64,000 nt of DNA from Roseicyclus persicicus (GTDB taxonomy: Bacteria > Pseudomonadota > Alphaproteobacteria > Rhodobacterales > Rhodobacteraceae): assembly GCF_012395815.1 (NCBI RefSeq), contig NZ_JAAZQQ010000001.1, forward strand, positions 1-64,000. Reading direction: 5' to 3'. Both the position numbers and the translations under genes were made by a program. The notes under the pieces were generated by a model. The model was given only the letters and a program-made list of their open reading frames with translations. It did no database searches and was not told the origin of the DNA. Shown piece by piece: positions 24,557 to 26,443 of this stretch (position 1 is the first letter of the stretch; every line of letters starts with the position of its first letter).

Positions 24557-25432
24557 ATGGAGATTTCATCGATCGGCGTGGTCGGGGCGGGGCAGATGGG
24601 CAACGGCATCGCCCATGTCTGCGCGCTGGCGGGCTACGACGTGGTGATGACCGACATCAGCGCCGACGCCCTGTCGCGGGCGCTGTCCCTGATCGAGAAG
24701 AACCTTGGCCGGCAGGTCAGCCGCGGCAAGATCAGCGAGGCCGAGATGGCCGCCGCCATGGCCCGCATCCGCACCACGACCACGCTGGCCGAGCTCGGGC
24801 CCACGGACCTCGTGATCGAGGCCGCGACCGAGCGCGAGACGGTGAAGCAGGCGATCTTCGAGGACCTGCTGCCGCACCTGAAGCCGACCACGATCCTGAC
24901 CTCGAACACCTCGTCGATCTCGATCACGCGGCTGGCCAGCCGTACCGACCGGCCGGAAAAGTTCATGGGGTTCCACTTCATGAACCCGGTGCCGGTGATG
25001 CAGCTGGTGGAGCTGATCCGCGGCATCGCCACCGACGAGGAGACGTTCAAGGCGTGCAAGTCGGTGGTGGACCGGCTGGGCAAGACGGCCGCCACGGCCG
25101 AGGATTTCCCGGCCTTCATCGTCAACCGCATCCTGATGCCGATGATCAACGAGGCGGTCTACACGCTGTACGAAGGGGTGGGGAACGTCACCTCGATCGA
25201 CATGGCGATGAAGCTGGGGACGAACCACCCGATGGGGCCGCTGGAGCTGGCCGACTTCATCGGGCTCGACACCTGCCTCGCGATCATGAACGTGCTGCAC
25301 GACGGGCTGGCGGACACCAAGTATCGGCCCTGCCCGCTGCTGACCAAATACGTCGAGGCGGGGTGGCTGGGCCGCAAGACCCAGCGCGGCTTCTACGACT
25401 ACCGCGGCGAGGTGCCGGTTCCGACGCGCTGA
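24557..25432 (+). CDS. 3-hydroxybutyryl-CoA dehydrogenase
   Basis: A 291-residue cytoplasmic enzyme. The Rossmann motif is IGVVGAGQMGNGIAHVCALA. The catalytic region has TSNTSSISITRLA, GFHFMNPVPVMQLVEL (catalytic His) and FPAFIVNRILMPMINEAVY. The C-terminal domain has NHPMGPLELADFIGLDTCL. It interconverts acetoacetyl-CoA and 3-hydroxybutyryl-CoA with NAD(P)H, feeding polyhydroxybutyrate, butyrate or the ethylmalonyl-CoA route. ATG at 24557 is chosen since the upstream frame is Arg-rich and low in conservation. Its stop lies one base before the flank of the CTTGCAAG palindrome array. Confidence 0.93.
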   Translation: MEISSIGVVGAGQMGNGIAHVCALAGYDVVMTDISADALSRALSLIEKNLGRQVSRGKISEAEMAAAMARIRTTTTLAELGPTDLVIEAATERETVKQAIFEDLLPHLKPTTILTSNTSSISITRLASRTDRPEKFMGFHFMNPVPVMQLVELIRGIATDEETFKACKSVVDRLGKTAATAEDFPAFIVNRILMPMINEAVYTLYEGVGNVTSIDMAMKLGTNHPMGPLELADFIGLDTCLAIMNVLHDGLADTKYRPCPLLTKYVEAGWLGRKTQRGFYDYRGEVPVPTR

Positions 25433-25435
25433 CCG

Positions 25436-25529
25436 GCGGCAGACCCTTGCAAGGGTCTGCCCAGGCGCTTGCAAGCGCCTGCCCACGTCCTTGCAAGGAC
25501 GTGGGTAGCTTCTTGCAAGAAGCTGCCGC
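25436..25529. repeat. Array of four CTTGCAAG-centred palindromes with exact 22-bp period
   Basis: Four perfect palindromes lie end to end: 25438-25461 (24 bp), 25462-25481 (20 bp), 25482-25505 (24 bp) and 25507-25524 (18 bp, extendable with G-U pairs). Each has the core CTTGCAAG. The core centres are at 25449.5, 25471.5, 25493.5 and 25515.5, exactly 22 bp apart. The arms differ between units (for example AGGCG/CGCCT against CACGTC/GACGTG) yet pair perfectly inside each unit. The outermost sequences GCGGCAG (25436-25442) and CTGCCGC (25523-25529) are also inverted repeats of each other. The array fills the gap between two convergent stop codons. Confidence 0.93.
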
Positions 25530-26443
25530 TACCTCTGGTCGGGGTCGTCCCTCAGGGCCAGCGTGCGCGCGCGCAGCCAGGCCATGAAGTCCCGCGGCTT
25601 GCCGATCCGGTCCTTCCACGCCTCGGGCGGGATCGGGTGGCCGATGATCGGGGCCTGCGGCTTGTCGAAGCTGTGCACCACCTCGTGGATCAGCAGCCCC
25701 TGCCGCAGGATCGGCGAGATCCGGTTCGCGATCTGGTAGGCGCGCGAGTTCGAGCCGGTGAAGAAGCACGGCACGATGGTCGCCCCCGAGGTGCGGATCA
25801 TCTTGGCGGTGAAGACGTTCCACTCGCCCTCGATCGCCGGACCCCACATCGTCTCGGACGCCGCGACCGCCCCCGAGGGGAACAGCGCGATCAGACCGCC
25901 GTTGCCGAGATGCCCCATCGCGGTCGCCCGCATCTGCAGCATCTTTTCCTGCGCGTCCTCCTCGTGGGGGAAGGGCACGGGGATCATGTAGCTCGCCGCC
26001 GCCTCGTCGATCCCGGTCAGCAGTGCGCGCGTCAGGATGCGGTAGTCGTCGCGCCGCCGCCCGATCAGGTCGGCGAGGATCATGCCGTCGACCAGCCCGT
26101 GGGGGTGGTTCGCCACGAACACCACCGGCCCCGTGGCGGGGATGCGGTCGAGCTGGTGGGCGGGCGTCTGCAGGTCGATGCCCATCACCTTCATGGTGGC
26201 CGGCCAGAAGGCCTGGCCCCGGAACTCACCCATCTGCTCGAACTGCCGCACCCGCCGCAGGATCGTCAGCTTGCCCGTCATCCACTCGATCGCCTTGATC
26301 GCGGTGCGGGTCCACGGATTTCCGAAGGTGTTGGAGTAGGTCAGGCTCCGCCGGTCGTAGACCCGGTCGGGCCCCGACATCAGCGGCGGACGCGGCGCCG
26401 CGAACTTGCGGGAACTTGTATCGGTCACGCGCCCTCGTCCCAT
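25529..26443 (-). CDS. Lysophospholipid acyltransferase family protein
   Basis: A 304-residue acyltransferase of the PlsC-like superfamily. The catalytic block is VVFVANHPHGLVDGMILAD, a NHPHG-xx-D version of the HX4D motif, followed by LTRALLTGIDEAAASYMIPV, ALFPSGAVAAS (acceptor-binding) and IVPCFFTGSNS. A hydrophobic first helix is absent, so it may be peripheral to the inner membrane. The ATG at 26443 is used here; a GTG at 26428 (MTDTSSRKF) has a better site, GAGGG, and is a real alternative. It ends in TAG immediately at the edge of the palindrome array. Confidence 0.87.
   Translation of the reverse strand: MGRGRVTDTSSRKFAAPRPPLMSGPDRVYDRRSLTYSNTFGNPWTRTAIKAIEWMTGKLTILRRVRQFEQMGEFRGQAFWPATMKVMGIDLQTPAHQLDRIPATGPVVFVANHPHGLVDGMILADLIGRRRDDYRILTRALLTGIDEAAASYMIPVPFPHEEDAQEKMLQMRATAMGHLGNGGLIALFPSGAVAASETMWGPAIEGEWNVFTAKMIRTSGATIVPCFFTGSNSRAYQIANRISPILRQGLLIHEVVHSFDKPQAPIIGHPIPPEAWKDRIGKPRDFMAWLRARTLALRDDPDQR

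Follow-up and report, generated by a model that had tools for sequence, protein, structure and literature searches.

A REP-like family of TTGCAA-centred palindrome arrays behind stop codons in part of the genus Roseicyclus

In the 64,000-nucleotide stretch of the Roseicyclus persicicus genome that we analysed (the window), a dehydrogenase gene and an acyltransferase gene converge, and the 96 bp between their stop codons are filled by a block of palindromes (Table 1). The original prediction described four palindromes of 18–24 bp lying end to end between convergent stop codons with a constant core, and both parts are confirmed: CTTGCAAG starts at 25446, 25468, 25490 and 25512, and the centres lie 22 bp apart. 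Across the window this motif occurs 5 times (0.36 expected). The arms are unlike between units and perfectly complementary inside each unit, which supports the proposal that symmetry and not sequence is kept in them, and no direct repeat family was found inside the block. When folded as RNA, the block gives four strong hairpins on either strand (–67.1 and –68.1 kcal/mol; z –7.8 and –8.3), as had been expected for both directions. None of 4227 Rfam families matched positions 25300–25700 at E values up to 1, and a known Rfam RNA at the array was rejected on this result.

Table 1. Features of the window array and its neighbouring genes, with example loci of the sister family
Feature	Position	Strand	Basis
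Upstream convergent gene, 3-hydroxyacyl-CoA dehydrogenase (hbd-like)	24578..25432, stop codon 25430-25432	+	own gene caller; PF02737, PF00725
Palindrome unit 1, 24 bp, centre TTGCAA	25438..25461	.	sequence
Palindrome unit 2, 20 bp, centre TTGCAA	25462..25481	.	sequence
Palindrome unit 3, 24 bp, centre TTGCAA	25482..25505	.	sequence
Palindrome unit 4, 18 bp, centre TTGCAA	25507..25524	.	sequence
Whole window array	25438..25527	.	family model R1: 102.4 bits on +, 99.8 bits on -
Downstream convergent gene, acyltransferase	25529..26443 (start 26380 or 26443), stop codon 25529-25531	-	gene caller + domain match
Sister-family example loci, G000	L344, L346, L348, L352, L356, L292, L261:497-560		

The window block is one member of a family dispersed through its own genome (G000). 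In the 3.71-Mb genome, CTTGCAAG occurs 117 times as compared to 9 for a reversed control, pairs of it at 20–24 bp spacing occur 70 times and triples 36 times, and the control has neither. We built a covariance model (R1) from 30 arrays of three genomes, the window array among them, and scored 150 candidates per genome, so that all match counts are lower bounds; in G000 it gives at least 64 matches, counted as 32 places, and the window array is the best of them. The 32 arrays hold 119 TTGCAA units. Rows of four units are the commonest (19 arrays), followed by rows of three (8), five (3) and two (2). Together with its closing pair, the centre reads CTTGCAAG in 108 units, TTTGCAAA in 10 and GTTGCAAC in 1. 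Two further units within rows lack TTGCAA and carry GCCGCGGC in one case and CATGCAAG in the other (L376:3985-4120, L378:3990-4110), and units with other centres are under-counted in these numbers because the arrays were found via TTGCAA. Of the 117 genomic copies of CTTGCAAG, 108 lie in the arrays that we read, and two isolated ones are among those listed. The bare hexamer is also rare elsewhere, with 5 copies outside arrays in the window and 32 loci together, as compared to 119 inside. Some units recur, for example those with CAGAGCC and CACGCCC arms, often in unchanged order, and an outer A:T pair is favoured in 83 of 97 units.

The exact 22-bp period holds for the window array but not for the family, where 61 of 87 neighbour spacings are 22 bp and the others are 20 (1), 21 (9), 23 (13) and 24 (1), with two of 42 and 44 that bridge a unit with another centre. 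A spread of 20–24 bp makes it doubtful that all cores lie on one helix face, as had been suggested, and strict helical phasing was rejected. The outer edges of the window block are indeed complementary (GCGGCAG at 25436-25442, CTGCCGC at 25523-25529), but their closure is not conserved as a feature in its own right: across the 32 arrays the edges pair at 2.66 of 4 positions as compared to 2.57 when shuffled (p=0.30). Since edges taken from different arrays would close equally well, this complementarity adds nothing beyond the shared unit consensus, and we rejected closure as a selected feature.

To place the arrays with respect to genes, we used a small self-written codon-usage gene caller and no annotation. 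By these calls all 32 arrays lie behind stop codons, as proposed for an element at gene 3′ ends; they are not always between convergent genes, since 19 are in convergent, 13 in tandem and none in divergent gaps. In 25 loci of G000, the gaps of 15 bp or more that contain no array comprise 9 convergent, 72 tandem and 30 divergent ones, so that both the absence of divergent arrays (Fisher p=3e-4) and the convergent excess (4e-9) stand out. A stop codon lies within 15 nt of 29 of the 32 arrays, and at 18, 31 and 52 nt from the other three. In 12 of the 13 tandem gaps the array is closer to the stop codon than to the next start, although in one of them by just one base, and among the 19 convergent arrays there are 16 with no more than 12 nt between the array and either stop. 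One array in the relative G011 (L309) was called divergent; its right flank shows a likely minus-strand stop, and we read the call as a miss of the gene caller. The arrays at L315 in G011 and at L325 and L338 in G003 apparently extend into the 3′ end of the preceding reading frame, so that part of a row may be translated.

We then looked at pairing in the arms, taking as inner cells the six pairs adjoining TTGCAA. In G000, counted without a pairing filter, 714 of 714 inner cells in 119 units are Watson-Crick, 420 of them in convergent arrays and 294 (all 294 paired) in tandem arrays, and the units carry 52 different six-base arms. In the relatives, non-Watson-Crick inner cells number 3 of 426 in G011 (19 arrays, leaving out one array that holds one further broken cell, L305), 5 of 450 in G003 (20 arrays) and 1 of 156 in G004 (7 arrays only); of these nine broken cells five are A-C or G-T and four are C-T or C-C. 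The unfiltered recount dropped only two chance TTGCAA sites in linkers (L318, L327), whereas the filtered tallies dropped units with fewer than two or fewer than three pairs, including a truly broken unit in G003 (L330). In an alignment of 30 arrays, taken from the 42 listed ones with four TTGCAA units (the centre is invariant there by construction), 98.0% of cells pair and 286 cells are changed on both sides; none of 500 shuffles reaches as high a number, and sliding the partners abolishes the signal. G-U pairs make up 7 of 1394 pairs (0.5%) in TTGCAA hairpins as compared to 40 of 659 (6.1%) in other 3′ hairpins of the same loci.

Of 26 G000 arrays compared, 15 have an orthologous array in G003, G011 or G004. 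Among 191 aligned units from 54 orthologous array pairs, which are not independent of each other, 125 show no difference in any of the six pairs, while one pair differs in 36 units, two in 17 and at least three in 13. Restricted to the 185 units with no more than three differing pairs, and with units of fewer than two pairs dropped beforehand, the count gives 77 double changes (55 transition-type, 22 transversion-type) as compared to 14 cells broken in one species, and 22 of the 77 two-sided changes are unreachable via one G-U step. The window array itself has orthologs in G011 and G003 with unit order unchanged; its unit 4 shows two-sided changes from both, and the G003 ortholog has a broken pair in unit 1. 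Five relatives that we read (G001, G002, G005, G007 and G008) have no array at the hbd junction. In G005 only about 9 nt separate the stop codons there, which means that one lineage gained the array or the other lost it. Downstream of hbd in G002 (L269) there are several GTTAAG-type motifs where the array would stand.

The family is widespread in part of one genus. Among 13 genus genomes, R1 matches number at least 64 in G000, 54 in G003, 53 in G011, 52 in G004, 10 in G001, 3 in G008 and 1 each in G007 and G010, and none were found among the 150 candidates scored per genome in G002, G005, G006, G009 and G012. Four other genus genomes thus carry the family, three richly and one sparsely, and three more have 1–3 matches. 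In G008 (L363, L372), G007 (L364), G010 (L365) and G001 (L371) we observed rows that mix TTGCAA with centres such as TTCGAA and TTGGAA or with damaged ones, possibly decaying or ancestral forms. Among 394 genomes of the taxonomic family (nearly one per genus), exact triples of CTTGCAAG occur only in G000. At least one exact pair is present in 10 of 101 relatives, namely G000, G001, G003, G004, G011 and five outside the genus, whose one or two pairs we take for chance. Of 102 stretches among the matches listed in database records, 35 have complementary arms; they come from Roseicyclus sp. Amp-Y-6, Roseicyclus sp. McBI.24, Rhodobacterales bacterium HKCCSP123, Roseibacterium sp. SDUM158016, an uncultured Roseicyclus (ERR2206770_bin.7) and Rhodobacteraceae bacterium UBA8790. 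The other 67 listed stretches are from outside the Rhodobacterales (Bacteroidaceae, Prevotellaceae, Verrucomicrobia and others) and have CTTGCAAG at 21–24 bp with mostly non-complementary arms, although a few of their units reach 4 to 7 pairs, and we did not count them as members. Among them, the stretches of the Bacteroidaceae MAG Horse_feces99 (L016, L020, L025, L110 and others) show numerous rows in which CTTGCAAG recurs at a spacing of exactly 22 bp and is usually flanked by C..G; their arms are mostly non-complementary further out, and this is apparently an unrelated look-alike repeat.

A scan for palindromes with other centres found a second set of rows, at 22–23 bp spacing, with arms such as GGAAAAC/GTTTTCC. 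The pattern GGAAAAC NNNN GTTTTCC has 55 copies in G000 as compared to 0 for the control. It also occurs, with 1 to 40 copies, in each of the 12 other genomes of the genus, and has 8 copies in one other genus and 0 to 3 in other relatives. In 43 of 50 listed copies (55 in total) the central tetranucleotide is self-complementary (TGCA, CGCG, CCGG or TCGA). Since an RNA hairpin needs no self-complementary loop, this favours symmetry at the level of DNA, or loop-loop pairing. Placement of this sister family is less strict than that of the TTGCAA family: the 12 separate places that we read comprise 8 convergent gaps, 3 tandem ones and a divergent one (L343). Among the 11 genus genomes examined, 6 have it behind a second dehydrogenase gene, which we take to be fadJ-like.

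In the broad sense, which asks for a palindrome of 20–40 bp with many intergenic copies mainly behind genes, the TTGCAA arrays are REPs, and the original prediction, which knew of no named element of this form, had overlooked the closest one. Br-REP1 of Bradyrhizobium is three palindromes in a row, with a perfect 20-bp palindrome, situated where the 3′ UTRs of convergent genes overlap each other; its central stem is found at about 200 intergenic sites and it is patchy among related species (PMC5082802). The two families share their alphaproteobacterial hosts, the rows of palindromes, the position at convergent gene ends and the patchy distribution. However, Br-REP1 is given as a single consensus, CCGGAATCTCGAGATTCCGG, whereas Roseicyclus units have only a fixed centre and free but complementary arms; Roseicyclus rows are most often of four units rather than three, and the sequences differ. 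The Br-REP1 stem CCGGAATCTCGAGATTCCGG is absent among the Roseicyclus units read, which all have different arms and, with two exceptions, the TTGCAA centre.

The CGTC-tagged REPs are likewise alphaproteobacterial palindromes of similar stem length near gene 3′ ends with no dedicated transposase, but their clusters are rare (PMC3733652), while in Roseicyclus rows are the rule among arrays that were found as rows. No unpaired CGTC tag is common to the units: CGTC occurs 10 times and GACG 13 times in the 32 arrays of 119 units, and even the most frequent of the tetranucleotides that follow a unit reach no more than 6 occurrences each. With the GTAG REPs, BIMEs and REPINs associated with RAYTs there is likeness in the short intergenic palindromes, the regular clusters, the mostly convergent or tandem gaps and the symmetry preserved through complementary changes; their stems are said often to contain G-T pairs (PMC2817692, PMC3733652), and Roseicyclus units have practically none. 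The GTAG tag is also absent as a common feature, with only 2 GTAG and 1 CTAC in the 3240 bases of the 32 arrays. The RAYT domain PF01797 was found in 0 of 13 genus genomes (some incomplete, down to 73%), while 5 of 14 control genomes were positive, and a RAYT-mobilised REP was rejected. REPs that stall ribosomes occupy the same stop-proximal position; in an E. coli set, 446 of 4,072 REPs are no more than 15 nt away from a stop codon (PMC12306157), as compared to 29 of 32 Roseicyclus arrays. None of the titles and abstracts listed in literature searches reports a TTGCAA array element, the listing for CTTGCAAG as a string covering 20 of 553 papers, and a search with five exact motif strings found no paper. 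The TTGCAA family is real, REP-like and close in form to Br-REP1, and judged by the tags and the transposase tested it belongs to neither the GTAG nor the CGTC family; its unusual part is the combination of free arms, near-flawless Watson-Crick symmetry and a fixed centre.

We considered several explanations for such arrays. Four equally spaced cores could suggest a local accident of tandem duplication, but with no direct repeat family in the block, 32 arrays genome-wide and orthologs in relatives, this outcome, named beforehand as the one that would refute the prediction, is excluded, and we rejected it. An ordinary bidirectional intrinsic terminator made of several hairpins, which had also been proposed, would fit the 3′ location and the four strong hairpins on both strands. 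However, a T run (5 T in 8 bases) follows none of the 64 array ends in G000 and none of 156 in four genomes, no terminator-like site was found in window positions 25300–25700, and such a terminator calls for neither several hairpins where one suffices nor a constant centre sequence; we rejected the canonical form and consider the explanation as a whole improbable.

Somewhat less remote, although still unlikely, is an array of sites at which a putative dimeric protein, of nucleoid, insulator or gyrase type, would bind the DNA through contacts with TTGCAA and the outer CA/TG; the array would absorb supercoils or block collisions of convergent polymerases. The near-universal centre (119 units in rows with TTGCAA, two seen without), the preferred outer A:T pair (83 of 97 units), the spacing near two helix turns, the strict Watson-Crick symmetry and the convergent bias are all consistent with it, and gyrase is described as binding BIME-2 repeats (PMC2817692). 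A dimer site, however, needs no sequence-free complementarity of the 4–5 bases between core and edge, the spacing varies from 20 to 24 bp, and 13 of 32 arrays stand in tandem gaps. We give a similarly low chance to a selfish or neutral mobile palindrome without function, spread by a putative enzyme and tolerated only behind stop codons. Its patchiness in the genus (R1 matches from 64 in G000 down to none in five genomes), the units that recur, often in the same order, and the array-free hbd junctions in five relatives would be expected of such an element, but no Y1 transposase (RAYT) domain was found in the 13 genus genomes, some of them incomplete, loci are shared between species with symmetry largely intact, and the arrays sit tightly by stop codons with zero broken pairs in G000.

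The reading that we prefer, with a probability of about one half, is that the window block is a copy of a dispersed, genus-restricted, REP-like 3′-end element, a row of hairpins whose symmetry would be kept up at the level of DNA by template switching. A role at transcript 3′ ends is suggested by the placement together with descent at the same junctions with conserved symmetry. Transcribed from either side, an array would fold into successive hairpins, and these would define or shield the mRNA 3′ end: they could act as a barrier to 3′-5′ exonucleases, as a boundary for Rho-type termination and possibly as a brake on ribosomes that reach the stop codon. Where genes converge, a single block would serve both transcripts. 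According to three reports, REPs in general block 3′-5′ decay, aid Rho-dependent termination and stall ribosomes when at most 15 nt from the stop (PMC5082802, PMC2817692, PMC12306157). Because G-U pairs are lacking even where mainly one strand is expected to be transcribed, and because there are double changes that no G-U step bridges, the data suggest that the symmetry is written in DNA. That G-U pairs are equally absent from tandem arrays would not be expected from selection on RNA alone. Template switching is described as a process that keeps stems perfect (PMC8794818); we infer that switching from arm to arm during DNA replication would correct or spread each new mutation, with the consequence that arms drift yet remain Watson-Crick palindromes. 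Because template switching alone fails to explain TTGCAA, the constant centre needs a further cause, and it may be held by selection on the loop or by a putative factor that reads the centre. Against this reading, none of the 156 array ends in four genomes is followed by a T run, neither a terminator-like site nor an Rfam match was found around the window array, five relatives manage without an array at the hbd junction, and broken pairs do occur in relatives.

More tentatively, and with less confidence than the reading above, both families may belong to one symmetry-coded class of elements at Roseicyclus gene ends, in which dyad symmetry is inherited, arms are copied onto each other in replication and a putative factor reads the palindrome and its centre, with the TTGCAA family fixing the centre and the sister family the arms. 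If this is true, wild genomes would contain, in both families, natural reporters of template switching. Taken together, these data indicate that TTGCAA arrays mark gene ends in an alphaproteobacterial genus and bring a row of REP-like palindromes close enough to be reached by the terminating ribosome. With many perfect stems, a good share of them orthologous, in which sequence is free but symmetry is not, the arrays make it testable whether compensatory stem changes come from selection on RNA or from template switching in DNA.
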